Source: Candidatus Cloacimonadota bacterium
GTDB taxonomy: Bacteria; Cloacimonadota; Cloacimonadia; Cloacimonadales; Cloacimonadaceae
Assembly (NCBI GenBank): GCA_012728875.1
Contig: JAAYEF010000024.1
Span: 1-64,000, forward strand
DNA: 64,000 nucleotides
Direction: 5' to 3'
Shown here: in pieces, positions 11,124 to 45,666 of the stretch
How positions within the stretch are numbered: position 1 is the first letter of the stretch
Layout: every line of letters starts with the position of its first letter
Made by a program: the position numbers and the translations under genes
Notes under the pieces: model-generated
Told to the model about the DNA's origin: nothing
The model's input: the letters and a program-made list of their open reading frames with translations, nothing else
Databases searched by the model: none

Positions 11124-14100
11124 AGAAACTCTTTGTTCTGCTCGCCCTGCTGGCCGCAGTTGCGGCAAGCGCCACGGTTAGGGTTTTGGAAAGCTCGGAA
11201 AGCCATATCCTGCTTGAATATAGCCTTGGCGACTTCGAGCTCCATGAAGCCGGGGACTTTTTACATTTGGAACTAACTGGAGCGAACTATGAACACAGAG
11301 TTGGAGCGCCACTTTTGCCCTTGGATGAAATCAAGGCAGCCCTTCCGCCTGTGGGAAACGCAACTGCTGTGGTCTTAAGCTCTTCCCAACGCTCTCAAAC
11401 CCTTTCCAAAAGGCTTCTGCCCGTTCCGGAAATGCGCATGGGAGAGTCGGTTTCCGAATATGTCCTCAATGTGGATGAAAGCCTTTACCGTGAGGCGCCC
11501 AAGCCACTTTTGGAAATGCTCGAACCCAGCACCTTCCGGGATCTCCGCTTTGTGGCTATCCATATTCATCCGTTCAGCTATGATGGCGGATTTTCCTTGC
11601 AAATCACCGAGCAGGTCCTGATCAGGATTGACATTCATGGAGGCAGCGGCCAGCGAGGCGAGGCGCTACAAGACGAACTGACCCTGGCTTTCGCCGAAAG
11701 CTTGGTGAATCCAGAACATGCCGTGCAGTTCCACAGTCCCGTCAAACAGCAGATTCACTATGCTGATTTTTCCAAATCGGACCATTGGCTGAGGCTGGAA
11801 ACAGACCGTGACGGCATTTTCCGCATCGGTCCCGAACATTTTACCGGCTTTCCGCTGGCAGACATCGATCCGCGCAGCTTCCGTCTCTTCACCAATGGCG
11901 GCCAGCTACTTTCCCATGGGATCCAAAACCCCGGAAATGAATTCGTGGAAGTGCCCATCCGGGTTGTGGGCGCCGAAGATGGGCGCTTTGACCCCCAGGA
12001 CTACATTGTTTTTTATGGCACAAACCGGGATGGCATCACTAAAAATTCCGGTCTGCAATTCGCACCCACATATTTCAATCCATACAGTGGCAACACGGTC
12101 TGGTGGCTCACCTTTGCAGGAGAATTTTCCGGCGAACCTCTCAGGATGCAAACCCTGCCCGGCGAGCAAAACTGGACCACACAAACTGACCGTTTTTCAG
12201 AAAACGTCCGCGTGGAAAAAGAAAACCACCGCCGCGACGTAATTGGATTTGATTGGTATATGACCAGGCTGTTCGGAAACTCCACCGCCGAATATGAATT
12301 TCAACTCCAGCTTGCCAACCCCGTTCCCGAGCAATCAGGATTACTGAGTTTTTCCATTCGCCAGGAAGCAGTCTCAAGCAGCGATTCTTTGCACAAAATC
12401 AATATTTTCTTGAACGACGAACCCATTTATACCAATAGCGGCTCTAGCATCTTCAGCTGGGGTGGGACGGGCACATACGTTTTCTCCAGGCAGGTTTCGA
12501 ACCTCTTAAATGGCCAAAACACCCTGCGCATCAAAGTGATAAGATCCTCCACCGACAACCTTTTCCTGGACTGGATCACCCTGAACTACGCCCGCCACAT
12601 CTACAAAGAAGACGCTCAAATTGCTGTCAAACAGATGGAGCTGAATTATGGAAACCCTGTCCGCTACAATATCTCTGGAAACACGAACACTAAAATCTAC
12701 CTGGTGAACAGCTTTACCGATCTTGCGATGCTGCCATTGCAACAGTCCGGATCACAGAGCTTTTTTGTTGGCACGGGAGACAGCTCCACGCGGTTTTGGC
12801 TCAGCGGCGACTCTGAACTTCTTCAGCCTTTGAATGTGGCGTTTAAAAACCCCACTGATCTCACTGCCGATCCCGCCCATCTGGACAACATCATCATCAG
12901 CCCGGATGAATTTTTAACCCAAGCGCAGACTTTGGCGGATATGTATTGGCAGGATTACGGTTTACGCAGCCGGGTGGTGAATCAAAATGATATTTTTGAA
13001 CAATTCAACGGCGGACACCCCGATCCTGTGGCGCTGCGCCAGTATCTGCGCTATGTTTTTTACAACCACACTTGGCCACGCTTGAGTTCGGTGACCCTTC
13101 TGGGCTTGGGAACCATCGACTGGCGAAACTTCTCCGGCCAGGCGCAGCCCAAAAACAAGATCATCACCTACCAGAGAGATTTCATTTCCTCCGATGACTA
13201 TTTTGTGATGCTCACCCAGTCTTCCTATCCGGAATTGATGGTGGGACGCTATCCTGCAAGCAATGAAACCGAACTTGCCGTGATGCTTTCAAACTTTGAA
13301 AACTACACTCGCAACCTCCAGGGCGGTTGGTGGCGAAATTCCACCATCCTGCTGGGAGATGACCTCTATAACGGCAGTTCTCAAGCCTATGAAAACATCC
13401 ACACCCGCCAAACACAAAAAGCCGGTACATTTATCCATCCCAGCATGTTGACAGATAAAATCTTTGCCTGGGATTATCCTTATGACCAGTTTCAGAACAA
13501 ACCCGAAGCCCGCGACGATATGCTCAAAGCCATCAACGAAGGCCGCCTGATTTGGTATTACATCGGTCACGGAAGCTACGACAAATTGGGCTCGGAAGAC
13601 TACTTCAACGGCGCTGCAGACATGGGACGCTTCAACAATTCCGGCAAGCTGCCCTTTTTCATGGCCGCCAGCTGCAGCGTTTCCCATTTTGACTACTGGG
13701 GCTTTGAAAGTTTGGGGCAAAAAACCGTGTTGATGAACGATCTGGGAGCCATCGCCTCCTATTCCGCCACCAGGCTCAGTTCTGCGACCCAGAATGCCCC
13801 CATGATGGAGTATGTGCTGGAAAACATCACCAAAAACCGTTACCCTGTGGGAAAATCCATCATGCTGGCAAAGATCAGACACACTGGAGTTGGCGCCGAT
13901 GAAAACGATGCAACTTATGTTCTATTCGGCGACCCCCACCTGAACATCGTCCCTCCCATCCGAAACGAACAAATGAACGTGACTTCGCAATCTGACGTTG
14001 CGGGACAAGATGCCTTGCGACCCAGAGACCTCGTCACCATCCAGGGTTCTTTTTCAGGCTCGCAGGCAAATGGGATAGCCCAAGTCAAGGTTTTCAACAC

Positions 14101-14974
14101 AGAAACCGAATATGACCTGGATTGGCAAACACATGTGAGCCATCGCGGAGCCCAGCTCTTCAGTGGTCAAGCCAGTGTGGATGGAGGCTCATATCAAAGC
14201 TCCTTCATCGTGCCGGATGATGCCACCCAGGGAAACACAGGCCTCATCGTCTCCTATTTTTGGGACCCCCTGGAAAAACAGGACTACACAAATTTCCGCC
14301 ATCCGGTTGCCTACAGCAGCAACGCCGTTTCTGTTGAAAATCCCGGCCCTCCCAAGATCGACTTGCTACTGGGCAGCCTCGATTTTCGTCCCGGTGACAC
14401 AGTTCCTCAAAACACCACCCTCTATGCCAAAATCGAGGATGAAAATGGCATAAACCTGACCGGACAATTCGGACACGGCATCCTCTTGGTTTTGGATAAC
14501 GCCCTCCAGGCCATCGCAGTCACAGATTATTTCAGCTACAACCTTGATTCCCACACCGCAGGACAGTTGGTTTATCCTCTTACAGACCTATCTGAAGGAC
14601 CCCACACCCTGCAGCTGATCGCGTTCGACAACTTCAACCTTCCCGCCGTGGCAAGCGTAGATTTCACCGTTAAAAAAACCGGTGACCTGACCATCGAACG
14701 CTTTTTGATCTATCCCAACCCCATGGAAAACGAAACCAATTTCACCTTCCTGCTTTCCCAGGATTCTGAACTGGACATCGATATCTTCACCATCACCGGC
14801 AAGAAGGCTCACAGCATCAAAACCTTTGGCAAACAAGGCTTTAACAGCGTCCACTGGGACGGAAAAGATGGAAGCGGCCATCGCCTTGCAAACAACACCT
14901 ATTTCGTAAAAATCCGCGCCAAAACGCAGGACTTGAAAGCCGAGGCCTTGGAACGCCTCGTGATCTTCAAATAA
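11120..14974 (+). CDS. C25 (gingipain/PorU-like) cysteine peptidase with T9SS C-terminal sorting domain
   Basis: 1284 residues. Signal peptide (1-18), a long N-terminal beta-rich propeptide-like region, a PorU/gingipain-type domain opening with WLRLETDRDGIFRIGPEH and FDPQDYIVFYG, then the C25 catalytic core with His817 (YYIGHGSYD) and Cys852 (MAASCSVSHFDYWG). Ig-like regions follow, and the end is a T9SS type-A sorting domain (IYPNPMENETNFTF, NNTYFVKI, terminal LVIFK). It could be the T9SS sortase PorU, which is a C25 enzyme of similar size with the same N-terminal style, or a secreted gingipain-like protease. It overlaps the gamma-subunit gene by four bases. Confidence 0.88.
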   Translation: MKKLFVLLALLAAVAASATVRVLESSESHILLEYSLGDFELHEAGDFLHLELTGANYEHRVGAPLLPLDEIKAALPPVGNATAVVLSSSQRSQTLSKRLLPVPEMRMGESVSEYVLNVDESLYREAPKPLLEMLEPSTFRDLRFVAIHIHPFSYDGGFSLQITEQVLIRIDIHGGSGQRGEALQDELTLAFAESLVNPEHAVQFHSPVKQQIHYADFSKSDHWLRLETDRDGIFRIGPEHFTGFPLADIDPRSFRLFTNGGQLLSHGIQNPGNEFVEVPIRVVGAEDGRFDPQDYIVFYGTNRDGITKNSGLQFAPTYFNPYSGNTVWWLTFAGEFSGEPLRMQTLPGEQNWTTQTDRFSENVRVEKENHRRDVIGFDWYMTRLFGNSTAEYEFQLQLANPVPEQSGLLSFSIRQEAVSSSDSLHKINIFLNDEPIYTNSGSSIFSWGGTGTYVFSRQVSNLLNGQNTLRIKVIRSSTDNLFLDWITLNYARHIYKEDAQIAVKQMELNYGNPVRYNISGNTNTKIYLVNSFTDLAMLPLQQSGSQSFFVGTGDSSTRFWLSGDSELLQPLNVAFKNPTDLTADPAHLDNIIISPDEFLTQAQTLADMYWQDYGLRSRVVNQNDIFEQFNGGHPDPVALRQYLRYVFYNHTWPRLSSVTLLGLGTIDWRNFSGQAQPKNKIITYQRDFISSDDYFVMLTQSSYPELMVGRYPASNETELAVMLSNFENYTRNLQGGWWRNSTILLGDDLYNGSSQAYENIHTRQTQKAGTFIHPSMLTDKIFAWDYPYDQFQNKPEARDDMLKAINEGRLIWYYIGHGSYDKLGSEDYFNGAADMGRFNNSGKLPFFMAASCSVSHFDYWGFESLGQKTVLMNDLGAIASYSATRLSSATQNAPMMEYVLENITKNRYPVGKSIMLAKIRHTGVGADENDATYVLFGDPHLNIVPPIRNEQMNVTSQSDVAGQDALRPRDLVTIQGSFSGSQANGIAQVKVFNTETEYDLDWQTHVSHRGAQLFSGQASVDGGSYQSSFIVPDDATQGNTGLIVSYFWDPLEKQDYTNFRHPVAYSSNAVSVENPGPPKIDLLLGSLDFRPGDTVPQNTTLYAKIEDENGINLTGQFGHGILLVLDNALQAIAVTDYFSYNLDSHTAGQLVYPLTDLSEGPHTLQLIAFDNFNLPAVASVDFTVKKTGDLTIERFLIYPNPMENETNFTFLLSQDSELDIDIFTITGKKAHSIKTFGKQGFNSVHWDGKDGSGHRLANNTYFVKIRAKTQDLKAEALERLVIFK

Positions 14975-38571: not shown

Positions 38572-38635
38572 ACAAAAATTCGCCCACAAAGCAATTGACA
38601 TAAATCCCACTTCCTGCAAAGTGGCATTCAGAAAT

Positions 38636-38793
38636 AGATGGTGCTACTTTCAGGTAAAAGGGAATCCCGTGAAAAGCGGGAGCGGTAACCGCCACTGTAT
38701 GCGGCAAATTCAGCCGGAGAAGTCACTGCGCTACATGCGTGGGAAGGCTTTTCCACTTTCAAGGCCGCCGCGAGCCAGGAAACCTGCCACCTT
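38636..38793 (+). promoter_or_regulatory. Cobalamin (adenosylcobalamin) riboswitch aptamer
   Basis: Strong primary-sequence match to the B12 riboswitch: P1-side GGTGC (38640-38644), AGGGAATCCCGTG, GGGAGCGGTAACCGCCACTGT, CCGGAGAAGTCACTG, GTGGGAAGG and the B12-box-type GCCAGGAAACCTGCC (38774-38788), closed by CACC. By family knowledge, bound cobalamin represses the downstream gene. The controlled gene is the secreted propeller at 38876. A TTGACA box at 38595-38600 may be the promoter -35 element, though no good -10 is seen. Confidence 0.95.
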
Positions 38794-38796
38794 TTC

Positions 38797-38830
38797 GCCA
38801 AAGTTCATACGGTTTATGTGAACTTTTGGC
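38797..38830 (+). promoter_or_regulatory. Hairpin after the riboswitch, candidate expression platform
   Basis: GCCAAAGTTCA (38797-38807) pairs with TGAACTTTTGGC (38819-38830) with one bulged base and an 11-base loop. It begins a few bases after the aptamer. No T-run follows (AAAGTAGTGCG), so it is not an obvious intrinsic terminator. The ribosome binding site of the gene lies 34 bp further on (38864-38870). Confidence 0.55.
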
Positions 38831-38875
38831 AAAGTAGTGCGATCCCTGTTCAAAAAAAGAAGCAAGGAGAACGCT

Positions 38876-40114
38876 ATGAAAACCAGACACATGATCGCCC
38901 TTTTGGCACTTTTTTTTGTTGCCAAAACCCTCACCGCCACGGAAATTTTCGTGGTCAATTCCGTTTCCCAAACGCTTTCCCGGATCGACACCGAAAACGG
39001 AAGCGTGAACAATTCCTTCGCCCTCTTGGGACAATCCCCCAATCTGATGGATATGGACGAACAGCACATTTACGTGGTCTGCTCCGGAGACAATGCCATC
39101 CAGGTTTTGAACCGTCTCACCGGCGCCCATATCCGCTACATCCCTGTGGCGGGTTCATCAAATCCCTACGACGTTCTGAAAGTGGGTGAACACCTCTACG
39201 TGAGCGGACTTTTCACGGAAAAGCTTTACAAAATCAGCCTGCAAACCAATTCTGTGGTGGCGTCTGTGAATGTGGGAGCCGGACCGCAGGGGCTTTGCTC
39301 GGATGGAACCCGGCTGTTTGTTTGCAACACAGGTGGTTGGTCACAAAACTTTGCCAATAGCTCCGTCAGCGTGATAGACTTGGCTTCCTTCAGCGTGGCA
39401 ACCACCATACCAACTTGGACAAACCCGCAATTCGCCGAGGTTTGGGATGGCTATTTGCACGTTTCCTGCACCGGAAACTGGAGCGATATCCAAGGAAAAA
39501 TGGACATCATAAACCTTTCCACCCTCACTCTGGAAAAGCGTTTGGATATTGGCGGCAATCCAGGCTCACTGTGGATCAACCCCAACGGCATCGGCTACAT
39601 CGGGGAAGGAATGTCAAGCGCGCTCTACAGCTATGATGCAAACACACACACCCTCCTGCACGGTTCGGCAAATCCGCTGGCTTATGATGCCTCGATGGTG
39701 CACGGAAACAGCAGCATGATGGCCTTGTTGAAGCAAAATTGGACTTCAGCTTCCAAAGTGAGCGTTTACGGTCTGGATTTTTCCCCATTGGGAAGCTATG
39801 ATGTGGGCATTTCCAGCTCGGACCTGATGGTGGCGCCCGAACTAAGCTCCATTCAGGATGAGGTTTACGCCACTCCCGCCGCGCAAGTCTATCCCAATCC
39901 CCTGCGCCGGGGAAGCCGGTTGAACCTCAAACAAATCGCTGATGATAATTCCCTGTTCCAGCTTTTCAACATCAAGGGCCAGTTGGTGCAAACCCACACC
40001 CTTGCAAAGGGCGAAAACAGCCTGGGACTGGGCGCTCTGCCCGCCGGAATATATCTCTATCGCATAGGCGAAAACTCCAAGGCTGAAAGCGGAAAACTGA
40101 TGATTTTGGATTGA
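38876..40114 (+). CDS. Secreted YncE/BtuG-like beta-propeller with T9SS sorting domain, under B12 riboswitch
   Basis: 412 residues. Signal peptide (about 1-21, no lipobox), then a seven-bladed-propeller-like region of YVTN/YncE type (EIFVVNSVSQTLSRID, NAIQVLNRLTG, GAGPQGLCSDGTRLFVCNTG, NSSVSVIDLASFSVATTIP, WDGYLHVSCTGNW), then a T9SS type-A domain (VYPNPLRRGSRLNL, GIYLYRIGENS, terminal KLMILD). ATG 38876 follows AAGGAGA. The pattern resembles Bacteroides BtuG, a surface propeller that captures cobalamin; control by a cobalamin riboswitch supports B12 uptake. BtuG is a lipoprotein, whereas this protein would reach the surface by T9SS. The function is inferred. Confidence 0.8.
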   Translation: MKTRHMIALLALFFVAKTLTATEIFVVNSVSQTLSRIDTENGSVNNSFALLGQSPNLMDMDEQHIYVVCSGDNAIQVLNRLTGAHIRYIPVAGSSNPYDVLKVGEHLYVSGLFTEKLYKISLQTNSVVASVNVGAGPQGLCSDGTRLFVCNTGGWSQNFANSSVSVIDLASFSVATTIPTWTNPQFAEVWDGYLHVSCTGNWSDIQGKMDIINLSTLTLEKRLDIGGNPGSLWINPNGIGYIGEGMSSALYSYDANTHTLLHGSANPLAYDASMVHGNSSMMALLKQNWTSASKVSVYGLDFSPLGSYDVGISSSDLMVAPELSSIQDEVYATPAAQVYPNPLRRGSRLNLKQIADDNSLFQLFNIKGQLVQTHTLAKGENSLGLGALPAGIYLYRIGENSKAESGKLMILD

Positions 40115-40200: not shown

Positions 40201-41346
40201 ATGAACTACTTTCTGAGTGACGACCAGCTTGAGATGCAGGAAATTGCACGCCGCATCGCGGAAGAAAAGATGCGCCCGCTTTCAGAAAAATATGATGAAG
40301 AGGGGATTTTCCCCTGGGACATCGTGGAAGTGATGCGCCAAAGCGACCTCTTCGCCATCCTGGTGCCGGAGGAGTATGACGGCATCAGCGGCAGGGTTTC
40401 CGACCTCGTTGTGGTCACAGAAGAGCTTTGCACCGTTGATGCAGGCATTTCCCTGGCTTTTGGAGCCACCGGCTTGGGTATGTATCCCATCACCATTGCC
40501 GGCAACGAAGAGCAGAAGCAAAAATGGCTGCCCATCATCGCCTCCGGAGAGAAGCTTGCCGCTTTTGCGCTCACCGAAGCCAACGCCGGTTCCGACGCCG
40601 GAGCCATGGAAACCACAGCCCGTAAGGAAGGAGACAAATATATCCTCAACGGCACCAAGCAGTGGATCACAAACGGCGGTGAAGCAGAGATTTACACAGT
40701 TTTTGCCATGACGGACAAAAGCAGGGGCGCGCGTGGTGCCTCCTGTTTTGTGGTGGAAAAAGGCACACCCGGTTTCAACTTCGGCAAGAAGGAAAACAAA
40801 ATGGGAATCCGTGCATCCGCCACACGCGAGCTGATTTTTGAAGATTGCGAAGTCCCGGCGGAAAACCTGCTTGGACGCGAAGGCACCGGCTTCATCACCG
40901 CGATGAAGGTTTTCGACAAATCCCGCCCCATGGTGGGATCCCAGGCTGTGGGCATTGCCCGCGGCGCCTTTGAAGCGGCGGTGAAATATTCCCGGGAAAG
41001 GCACCAGTTTGGCAAGCCCATCTCATCCTTCCAGGCAGTCCAATTCATGCTGGCAGACATGGCGACCCAGATCGAAGCTGCCCGCTCTCTGGTTTGGCAA
41101 ACCGCCAAAATGATAGACAGCGGCGAACGCAACTACAGCAAGGAATCCGCCATGTGCAAATACTTTGCCTCGGACGTTGCCATGAAGGCTACCACCGACG
41201 CCGTTCAAATCCTGGGCGGATACGGCTACATGAAGGAATATCCGGTGGAAAAAATGATGCGCGACGCCAAGATCCTGCAGATCTATGAAGGCACAAACCA
41301 GATTCAACGCGGCATCGTTGCCGCCAACCTGCTGAAGGAATATTGA
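40201..41346 (+). CDS. Short-chain acyl-CoA dehydrogenase (butyryl-CoA dehydrogenase-like)
   Basis: 381-residue FAD enzyme interconverting a saturated acyl-CoA and its trans-2-enoyl-CoA. Family signatures: FALTEANAGSDAG, WITNGGEAEIYTVFA, MGIRASATRELIFEDCEVP, RHQFGKPISSFQAVQFMLAD-type segment, QILGGYGYMKEYPVEKMMRD, and the catalytic Glu363 in IYEGTNQIQRG as in SCAD. ATG 40201 follows AAGGAG. No electron-transfer flavoprotein genes are adjacent. It fits butyrate or branched-chain fermentation with Ptb at 9565. Chain-length specificity cannot be set from sequence by eye. Confidence 0.92.
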   Translation: MNYFLSDDQLEMQEIARRIAEEKMRPLSEKYDEEGIFPWDIVEVMRQSDLFAILVPEEYDGISGRVSDLVVVTEELCTVDAGISLAFGATGLGMYPITIAGNEEQKQKWLPIIASGEKLAAFALTEANAGSDAGAMETTARKEGDKYILNGTKQWITNGGEAEIYTVFAMTDKSRGARGASCFVVEKGTPGFNFGKKENKMGIRASATRELIFEDCEVPAENLLGREGTGFITAMKVFDKSRPMVGSQAVGIARGAFEAAVKYSRERHQFGKPISSFQAVQFMLADMATQIEAARSLVWQTAKMIDSGERNYSKESAMCKYFASDVAMKATTDAVQILGGYGYMKEYPVEKMMRDAKILQIYEGTNQIQRGIVAANLLKEY

Positions 41347-42981: not shown

Positions 42982-44277
42982 TCAAGGGAAAGTCCTGCAT
43001 ACGCGGAAGCCGATTGCGAAGTAGCTCAACTCAGCATAGTCACCGTTCCGACGTGAAACGGTGCAATAGTCGGCAGAGCTGTAACAGCTACCACCGCGAT
43101 TCACGCGGATGGAACCGCTGTAAACATCCCAGCACCATTCCCAAACGTTGCCGCTCATGTCGTAAATACGAAGCTCGTTGGGACGCTTTGTACCAACCTG
43201 TTTTGTTCCGAAAAGCGAATTGTTGCCTTCATGCCATGCCACCTCATTGATATCGTTGCTGCCGCTGTAGGTGTAGCCGTGCGTATGCAAACCGCCCCGG
43301 GCGGCAAATTCCCACTCCTCCTCCGTAGGCAGCCGGTAACCGATGGCGTTCCAGTTACAGCTTACGTTAATGTGGTTCTCAGAATTAGCATTCCAACCTG
43401 CAGGCCAATTATCCGGATTGCTGCCATAATCCAGATAACTGTAACAGGGAGTCAAGCCTTCCAGAATGCTGCGACGGTTGCAATATTCAATGGCATCGAA
43501 CCATGAAACTTGTTCCACAGGATGCTTTGGATTACCGCCAAACAAAGAGGGATTGCTGCCCATCACAGCCGCATATTCAGCCTGGGTAAGCTCGTATTTA
43601 CCGATGTAAAAACCCGAGACAGTCAGGCCATTGGTGTAGTGACCTGAGCCAGGATAAATGGTGCCACCCGGAACATAGACCATCCGGATGGGAGGGGGAG
43701 GTACGCCTATTGTGTATGTGGCGATGGCGGTGGAACTGGGCGCCCAGCCTGTTTTGAAGCCCTTGGCTTTTATTGTGGTGCGGACATTCAACGTAATGGG
43801 TTCAGTATACTTAGTCGACGTTTCGGTTGGTTCCGTCACGTCGGTTGTGTAATGGATTTCTGCCCCCGGAGTTGCACATGAGATACTGACAATTTTTGCC
43901 GAATCATAGGTACCACTTGGGACACTAAATATCGGTTTGGCAACCTTTAAATTGTATTTTGCGCTCGCGGTTTTACTGTCCTGCAAGTCTTGTCTAAATG
44001 CCTTGGCTTTAATTGTTGTTGTTTCATCAATGCTTATAGGTTTTATGTAAACAGGTGATGATGAATCAGGCTCACTTCCATCCAGTGTATAATAAACGCT
44101 AACTCCCAGGGTTGCGCAGTCTATGCTTACCGTTTGAGGGCTTTCATATGTTCCTCCAGGTGGGTCAAAAAAAGGTGTGGCCACCCTATTAGGATTAGTG
44201 AGTTTATCACAAGCTCCAACCAAGAAGAATGTAAGAACCACCAAAAGAGAAAAAACTACCTTGGCTTTTGTTTTCAT
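42982..44277 (-). CDS. Lipoprotein with CHB_HEX_C-type repeats and formylglycine-generating-enzyme (SUMF1) domain, copy 1
   Basis: 431 residues. Lipobox LVGAC (Cys23) follows a hydrophobic signal. Two CHB_HEX_C-like beta domains (about 33-112 and 113-190; VYYTLDGSEPDSSS, IHYTTDVTEPTETS) lead to a SUMF1/FGE-sulfatase-type domain (about 195-430): YELTQAEYAAVMGSNPS, PVEQVSWFDAIEYCNRRS, YRLPTEEEWEFAARGG, DMSGNVWEWCWD, VNRGGSC, GFRVCR. Bacterial SUMF1 domains are often sugar- or ligand-binding rather than true formylglycine-generating, and no sulfatase is nearby. The paralogue lies immediately upstream at 44413. Confidence 0.87.
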   Translation of the reverse strand: MKTKAKVVFSLLVVLTFFLVGACDKLTNPNRVATPFFDPPGGTYESPQTVSIDCATLGVSVYYTLDGSEPDSSSPVYIKPISIDETTTIKAKAFRQDLQDSKTASAKYNLKVAKPIFSVPSGTYDSAKIVSISCATPGAEIHYTTDVTEPTETSTKYTEPITLNVRTTIKAKGFKTGWAPSSTAIATYTIGVPPPPIRMVYVPGGTIYPGSGHYTNGLTVSGFYIGKYELTQAEYAAVMGSNPSLFGGNPKHPVEQVSWFDAIEYCNRRSILEGLTPCYSYLDYGSNPDNWPAGWNANSENHINVSCNWNAIGYRLPTEEEWEFAARGGLHTHGYTYSGSNDINEVAWHEGNNSLFGTKQVGTKRPNELRIYDMSGNVWEWCWDVYSGSIRVNRGGSCYSSADYCTVSRRNGDYAELSYFAIGFRVCRTFP

Positions 44278-44412
44278 GGTGCACCTCTATTTTTTTGTTA
44301 AACGTTGCGTTCATTAATCATAAATAATTCAAACAATTTCCGCTTTGGCTGTTTCATAACTTTAATCCCCCTGCTTCTGAATCTTCAAAAGGCAAAAAGG
44401 GAAAAACAAAAA

Positions 44413-45666
44413 TCAAGGGATATTCCTGCATATGCGGAAGCCAGCAAAGGCGCTGCTGTAAGTGGCAATGCTGCCGGCCCGAAACGAAACAGGGCGACAA
44501 TAGTCGTACCAACAGCCACCGCGCAAGGCACGGTAGATATCGCAGTAAATATCCCAGCACCATTCCCAAACGTTACCGCTCATGTCGTAAATACCAAGCT
44601 CGTTGGGAAGTTTGCCGCCAACCTGTTGTGTTCCCCAAATCGAATTGTTTCCAACATACCAAGCAACTTCGTCAACGTTGTTGCTGCCGCTGTAGGTGTA
44701 GCCATGCGTCTGCAGGCCGCCCCGGGCGGCATATTCCCACTCCGCTTCTGAAGGCAGCCGGTAACCGATGGCATTCCAGTTACAGATTACGTTAACGTGG
44801 TTCTCAGAATCAGCATTCCAACCTGACGGCCAGTTGTCCGGATTGCTGCCGTAAGTCAGATATCTGTAGCAGGGGGGCAAGCCCTCCATCAGGCTGCGAC
44901 GGTTGCAATATTCAATAGCATCAAACCATGAAACTCGCTCGACAGGATGATTGGGATTGCCGCCAAACCCAGAGGGATTGGTGCCCATCACTGCCTCATA
45001 TTCAGCCTGGGTAAGCTCATATTTGTCGATGAAAAAATTACCAACCGTAATCCCTGCAACGGTCCCACCCTGAACAAAGACGAAGTTCTCAGGAATGAAT
45101 GTATAGGTCTCGCTGGCGGTGTCGCTGGACGCACAGCCTGTTTTGAAGCCCTTGGCTTTGATTGTGGTGCTCACAATTACCGTAATGGGTTCATTATACT
45201 CGGTTGACGTTTCGGTCGGTTCCGTCCCGTCGGTTGTGAAATGGATTTCTGCCCCCGGAGTAGCACAGGAGATGCTAACAAATTGTGCCGAGACATAGGG
45301 GCCGCCTTGGACACTAAATATCGGTTTGGCAACCTTTAAATTGTATTTTGCGCTCGCGGTTTTACTGTCCTGCATGCCTTGTCTAAATGCTTTGGCTTTA
45401 ATTGTTGTTGTTTCATCAATGCTTATAGGCTTTGTGTAAATAAGCGAAGCTGAATTTGGCTCACTTCCATCCAGTGTATAATAAATGGTTACTCCCAAAG
45501 TTGCGCATTTTATGATTATTATTTGGGGGCTTTCAAATGTTCCTCCCCGTGGGTTAAAAAAAGGTGTGGCTACCCTATTAGGATTAGTGAATATATTACA
45601 ACCTCCAATCAAGAAGAATGTAAGAACCACCAAAAGAGAAAAACATACCTTGGCTTTTGTTTTCAT
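44413..45666 (-). CDS. Lipoprotein with CHB_HEX_C-type repeats and SUMF1 domain, copy 2
   Basis: 417 residues, closely similar to the copy at 42982 along its length. Lipobox LIGGC (Cys23), two CHB_HEX_C-like domains (VTIYYTLDGSEPNSAS, IHFTTDGTEPTETS), and a SUMF1 domain (YELTQAEYEAVMGTNPS, YRLPSEAEWEYAARGG, DMSGNVWEWCWD, GFRICR). It is shorter between the repeats and the SUMF1 domain (FIPENFVFVQGG versus a longer GVPPPPIRMVYVPGG linker), and its last part differs (LRGGCWYDYCRPVSFR). A putative promoter lies 170 bp upstream at 45866-45837. Confidence 0.87.
   Translation of the reverse strand: MKTKAKVCFSLLVVLTFFLIGGCNIFTNPNRVATPFFNPRGGTFESPQIIIIKCATLGVTIYYTLDGSEPNSASLIYTKPISIDETTTIKAKAFRQGMQDSKTASAKYNLKVAKPIFSVQGGPYVSAQFVSISCATPGAEIHFTTDGTEPTETSTEYNEPITVIVSTTIKAKGFKTGCASSDTASETYTFIPENFVFVQGGTVAGITVGNFFIDKYELTQAEYEAVMGTNPSGFGGNPNHPVERVSWFDAIEYCNRRSLMEGLPPCYRYLTYGSNPDNWPSGWNADSENHVNVICNWNAIGYRLPSEAEWEYAARGGLQTHGYTYSGSNNVDEVAWYVGNNSIWGTQQVGGKLPNELGIYDMSGNVWEWCWDIYCDIYRALRGGCWYDYCRPVSFRAGSIATYSSAFAGFRICRNIP

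Follow-up and report, generated by a model that had tools for sequence, protein, structure and literature searches.

A T9SS-tagged, BtuG-like propeller behind a cobalamin riboswitch is a probable surface corrinoid-capture protein of Cloacimonadota

The stretch of Cloacimonadota DNA analysed here (the window, 64 kb in length) carries a complete cobalamin riboswitch and, directly behind it, the gene for a secreted β-propeller protein. We consider it very likely that this propeller is a surface corrinoid-capture protein, acting as a BtuG-like lid or feeder for BtuB and delivered by T9SS instead of by the lipoprotein route. The first-pass annotation of the window had proposed a T9SS-exported scavenger of the BtuG type, and this proposal is supported by matches to the BtuG fold, by linkage of the propeller gene to a riboswitch or to btuB in 90 of 103 genomes, and by a conserved sorting tail together with SprA and PorU. 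From these lines of evidence we infer B12 binding, contact with BtuB and a surface location for the propeller. Beyond what the annotation had reported, the family has a phylum-wide spread, btuD-btuB lies elsewhere in the genome, and both T9SS-tagged and lipoprotein versions of the propeller occur in WOR-3.

Results

A complete cobalamin riboswitch precedes the propeller gene

A cmscan search of the whole 64 kb against Rfam gave one match in total, a full-length cobalamin riboswitch aptamer (RF00174) at 38622–38805 on the forward strand. The match covers model positions 1–189 of 189 and scores 88.8 bits (gathering score 31.5; E-value 1.4e-20), and its alignment displays the conserved core, including a B12-box-like GAGCCAGGAAACCUGCC. 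The Infernal run had been suggested by the first-pass annotation, whose B12 riboswitch, placed at 38636–38793, falls within the match. This copy is also the single RF00174 match in the 2.17-Mb genome.

Right after the aptamer core, RNAfold predicts a P13-like hairpin in the leader (38797–38830, forward strand) with the loop ACGGTTT. The bases CGGTT (38810–38814) are complementary to AACCG in an L5-like loop (38687–38691, same strand), which we propose as the kissing partner of the hairpin loop. The ACGG of the hairpin loop is kept across the window’s genus. Other genera have CTCCG in L5 and either CGGAG or CGGGG in the hairpin loop, so that both elements change together. This co-variation between genera fits the L5–L13 kissing loop that is a feature of cobalamin riboswitches. 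The leader has no T run 3′ of the hairpin, which makes control of translation likelier than termination; the riboswitch therefore probably acts at translation. A Shine-Dalgarno sequence, AAGGAG, is found at 38864–38869 on the forward strand. Leaders of relatives seemed to contain a hairpin that masks the ribosome site; the leader in the window folds differently, and we do not claim such masking here.

Domain organisation and fold of the propeller protein

The propeller open reading frame begins 70 nt after the riboswitch and runs on the forward strand from an ATG at 38876 to a stop at 40114, encoding 412 amino acids. Its N-terminus was judged from the residues themselves to be a probable Sec signal peptide, MKTRHMIALLALFFVAKTLTA (38876–38938), without a lipobox cysteine; a lipobox pattern was absent in 45 of the 46 rows of sets A1 and A3. 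Pfam identified YNCE (E-value 2.3e-6) and, over residues 338–410, the T9SS tail Por_Secre_tail (PF18962, 5e-9), and NCBIfam identified beta_rpt_yvtn and the T9SS type A sorting domain TIGR04183 (1.4e-10). The open reading frame and these matches agree with the secreted YVTN/YncE propeller with a T9SS sorting domain described in the first-pass annotation. DUF5074 (PF16819), a propeller family found beside B12-binding DUF4465 proteins (PMC13398666), was matched by 5 of 26 close relatives of the protein.

An AlphaFold2 model built from 26 relatives was confident (pLDDT 89.2), with most of the propeller strands above 90. Propeller strands occupy residues 23–319 and are followed by a loose linker and a separate C-terminal β domain. 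The consecutive strands of the model, together with the BtuG matches described below, define a seven-bladed β-propeller at residues ~23–319 (38942–39832), and the sorting domain at residues 338–410 (39887–40105) is all-β in the model.

The model was compared with PDB structures using Foldseek. The top match was 1l0q, the archetypal archaeal YVTN propeller, and ranks 2–17 were taken by 16 chains of BtuG1, BtuG2 and BtuG3 structures, most of them cobalamin-bound, with E-values from 8e-16 to 2e-13. Target-normalised TM scores for these chains were 0.74–0.80, except for 8blw_B, a chain of 626 residues (0.43). A profile of the propeller family, searched against the PDB, likewise found BtuG1 (8ptf, 8ptd and 8blw chain B; E ~1e-18), BtuG3 (6e-13) and BtuG2 (~1e-11); BtuG codes were assigned from the Foldseek results and PMC10404256. 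The structural comparison with BtuG that had been suggested at the outset thus recovered similarity to all three BtuG proteins, behind 1l0q. Sequence identity to BtuG is low, at 13–18% across the fold, and YVTN propellers are generic, which weakens a BtuG-specific reading. We conclude that the Cloacimonadota propeller is probably homologous to BtuG.

A candidate corrinoid pocket

In BtuG2, the loop Asp236–Pro249 closes over cobalamin through Tyr239 (PMC10404256). With the numbering of BtuG2 verified on every residue that the paper names, the lid loop containing Tyr239 (DGGYEGSPYGYEAP) aligns with NTGGWSQNFANSS of the window protein. Of 26 close relatives, 24 have Tyr or Trp in the Tyr239 column; in more distant families the aromatic residue is not kept there. 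Thr64, at the end of the Asn54–Thr64 loop of BtuG2, aligns with the invariant Thr33, and the nearby Asn28 is also invariant. Trp194 of BtuG2 is not conserved, with Leu or Phe near the aligned place, and Trp272 and Tyr316 could not be placed in the alignment. This pattern of residues is suggestive, hinting at a corrinoid pocket but falling short of proof.

Linkage to riboswitches and btuB across the phylum

We searched 125 Cloacimonadota genomes for RF00174 and with profiles for BtuB and the propeller. Propeller orthologues were present in 103. In 38 of these, RF00174 is found under 200 nt upstream of the propeller, and 55 have btuB on the propeller’s strand, under 500 nt upstream; the union of the two sets is 90 genomes, three of which have both. 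Among the 71 genomes that are at least 90% complete, 67 have the propeller and 68 have btuB. The single such genome with btuB alone is G085, where btuB ends 431 bases from a contig end. The best PDB matches of the BtuB profile were BtuB3 and BtuB2 of Bacteroides and BtuB of E. coli.

In the window’s genus, the riboswitch sits 62–69 nt before the matched propeller frame in all 10 propeller-bearing genomes, a regularity that argues against a chance pairing. Family-wide, the pair was found in 36 of 45 relatives, and neither a riboswitch nor btuB was directly upstream of the propeller in 6 of the 45. Genomes beyond the window’s family usually have riboswitch-btuF-btuC, followed by a divergent iscRSU group and then by btuD-btuB-propeller. 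The apparent ancestral locus is riboswitch-btuF-btuC...btuD-btuB-propeller. Genus g8 has the order riboswitch-btuB-riboswitch-propeller. In the window’s genus, btuD-btuB has stayed next to iscRSU, the ancestral arrangement, and the propeller lies elsewhere in the genome with its own riboswitch; RF00174 had no match before btuD-btuB in the stretch examined from this genus (L112), and a btuC-like permease gene lies at a contig end, away from the window’s propeller. The propeller gene is the sole gene found directly under a cobalamin riboswitch in the window’s genus.

Several further arrangements were recorded. Five genomes of genus g2 (G001, G003, G004, G006 and G009) have the propeller and btuB apart and no RF00174 match anywhere in the genome; the riboswitch seems to have been lost in this genus. 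Propellers of the Cloacimonadota type also occur in two sequences titled Armatimonadetes or Armatimonadota (L136 and L181), the title of L136 being probably a mislabel. Downstream of the propeller in the window, an acyl-CoA dehydrogenase gene (40201–41346) starts 86 nt past the propeller stop. Most genomes of the genus, though not L036, have an open reading frame of ~381 amino acids after the propeller, which might share the riboswitch-controlled transcript. Further along, on the reverse strand at 42982–45666, are two adjacent, lipoprotein-like paralogues; judged from sequence, each combines repeated stretches of the chitobiase type with a C-terminal part that resembles formylglycine enzymes.

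Predicted T9SS export and conservation of the sorting tail

The window itself encodes the T9SS sortase PorU at 11774–14965 (forward strand), a part of the machinery lying outside the propeller locus (NF033707, 579.4 bits against a cut-off of 420), and SprA is encoded in the genome (424.9 bits). The TIGR04183 tail was found in 20 of 20 diverse propeller relatives, and the Pfam T9SS tail in 24 of 26 close relatives, the other two being below the threshold used. The C-terminal part of the PorU model has more than 30 matches in the genome (G000), which correspond to many T9SS type A tails. T9SS has been reported in Cloacimonadota and is absent from Bacteroides spp. (PMC11285876).

Both anchoring modes occur in WOR-3 loci

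Related propellers were found in four loci labelled WOR-3 or “bacterium” (L175:3662–9230, L176:1931–7514, L179:2523–6625 and L180:3697–9293). The propeller is T9SS-tagged in L175, L176 and L180, and is a lipoprotein with a lipobox-like cysteine in L179 and L180; in L180 the two forms are adjacent, preceded by genes for a TonB receptor and a further T9SS-tagged protein. RF00174 is present in L176 and L179, which also carry a TonB receptor and have the T9SS-tagged and the lipoprotein propeller, respectively; none was found in the fetched stretches of L175 and L180. That loci of a single type hold the two anchoring modes is our strongest indication that the T9SS-tagged propeller fills the same role as the lipoprotein one. 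Besides the TonB receptor, these loci encode a further T9SS-tagged protein with only weak LIC_13355-type similarity. The model of this protein beside the receptor (A5) is poor (pLDDT 40), and it may be a new component of B12 loci.

Probable dependence of the host on external corrinoids

The genome encodes a methylmalonyl-CoA mutase, identified by its sequence. A search for CbiC gave no match, though with the assembly ~90% complete absence is not proof. Taken together, these observations suggest that the host probably depends on external corrinoids.

Discussion

The reading that we favour is that of a BtuG-like capture protein exported by T9SS. Low intracellular B12 would lead the riboswitch to permit expression of the propeller, probably at translation. 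Sec would then carry the protein across the inner membrane and T9SS across the outer membrane, where PorU would trim the tail and either attach the propeller to LPS or release it. The propeller would bind corrinoids and pass them to BtuB, the B12-specific TonB-dependent transporter, after which BtuFCD would import them. Because the first and last blades of the propeller meet, attachment through the C-terminus could place it near the position of BtuG’s lipid tether.

Three other explanations were weighed, and conserved synteny leads us to reject the one that requires coincidence. A generic YVTN surface protein might by chance lie behind a riboswitch serving another gene, for which the acyl-CoA dehydrogenase after the propeller might be the true target. 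The riboswitch and propeller are however kept together throughout the genus and in most of the family, the dehydrogenase is not always there (it is absent in L036), and beyond the family it is btuB that precedes the propeller, all of which makes a chance placement extremely improbable. It is also improbable, if less so, that the exported propeller is released as a diffusible protein corrinophore that can be shared with neighbours. T9SS cargo may stay attached to the cell or be set free, the propeller lacks a lipid anchor, and its gene no longer adjoins btuB in the window’s genus. Against this, PorU, which usually attaches proteins with type A tails to LPS, is present, and the btuB linkage in other parts of the phylum points to a partner that is bound to the cell.

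Somewhat less remote, and still unlikely, is a role in the B12 regulon that involves no binding of free corrinoids by the surface protein itself, which might for example dock to BtuB or support it structurally, or bind another ligand such as a corrinoid-carrier protein. The low identity to BtuG, the incomplete conservation of the named BtuG2 pocket residues and the many ligands of YVTN propellers all fit such a role. The best specific structural neighbours are nevertheless all BtuG structures, and the linkage to btuB is tight, as it is for BtuG in Bacteroidetes (PMC6143338). A corrinoid-capturing partner of BtuB thus remains our preferred reading. On balance, we also find it fairly likely that Cloacimonadota, along with WOR-3, have a B12-binding lid for BtuB that is placed by T9SS, anchored at its C-terminus and free of lipid, separate from the lipoprotein lid of Bacteroides; the most radical form of this idea would be a released, diffusible corrinophore in syntrophic communities.

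BtuG has been described as a surface lipoprotein exclusive to Bacteroidetes, its homologues being confined to that phylum in a study of gut genomes (PMC6143338). The openly available literature that we searched held no prior description of a T9SS-exported BtuG, or of T9SS in connection with cobalamin. The first-pass annotation had raised the prospect of a new route for bringing a B12 scavenger to the surface, and the literature searched is consistent with this; our genome search took in Cloacimonadota, WOR-3 and a small number of MAGs with other labels, and T9SS-tagged BtuGs may exist in Bacteroidota genomes. If our reading is true, riboswitch-controlled surface capture of B12 is not tied to lipoprotein export, and a BtuG-like propeller exists phylum-wide outside Bacteroidetes. 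The lack of T9SS in Bacteroides spp. (PMC11285876) may explain why known BtuG proteins are lipoproteins. Since the BtuG lid is tethered by its N-terminal lipid, a lid attached at the C-terminus would have to open differently or be unfixed. Members of the window’s family include propionate oxidisers (PMC8542988), and with a B12-dependent methylmalonyl-CoA mutase in the genome, B12 capture may matter for anaerobic digestion.

Of the known systems to which the locus can be compared, the riboswitch is the most familiar: its aptamer is an ordinary member of the RF00174 class, complete and with L5–L13-like loop pairing, and the unusual part is the gene under its control. As T9SS type A cargo (TIGR04183/PF18962), the propeller has the expected signal peptide and C-terminal sorting domain, with SprA and PorU encoded in the genome; it would differ from other such cargo in being a component of B12 uptake, none having been reported as such in the literature searched. 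The B12-binding surface proteins of the BtuH/DUF4465 type likewise serve btuB loci as accessory binders of B12 and occur next to propellers (PMC13398666); their fold is a β-jellyroll rather than a propeller. The closest single structure by both Foldseek and phmmer, the archaeal YVTN surface-layer propeller 1l0q, is alike through the generic YVTN repeat, a likeness that implies no btuB or riboswitch context. BtuG1, BtuG2 and BtuG3 of B. thetaiotaomicron (YncE-like, DUF5074) share with the Cloacimonadota protein the seven-bladed propeller, control by a cobalamin riboswitch, linkage to btuB across relatives, an export signal and a similar position of the lid loop, at ~15% identity. BtuG is an N-terminal lipoprotein with a lipobox and export signal (PMC6143338), whereas the Cloacimonadota propeller has a C-terminal T9SS tail and no lipobox. 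As the lipoprotein anchor is a defining feature of BtuG, we class the protein as BtuG-like in its working and not as a BtuG in the strict sense.
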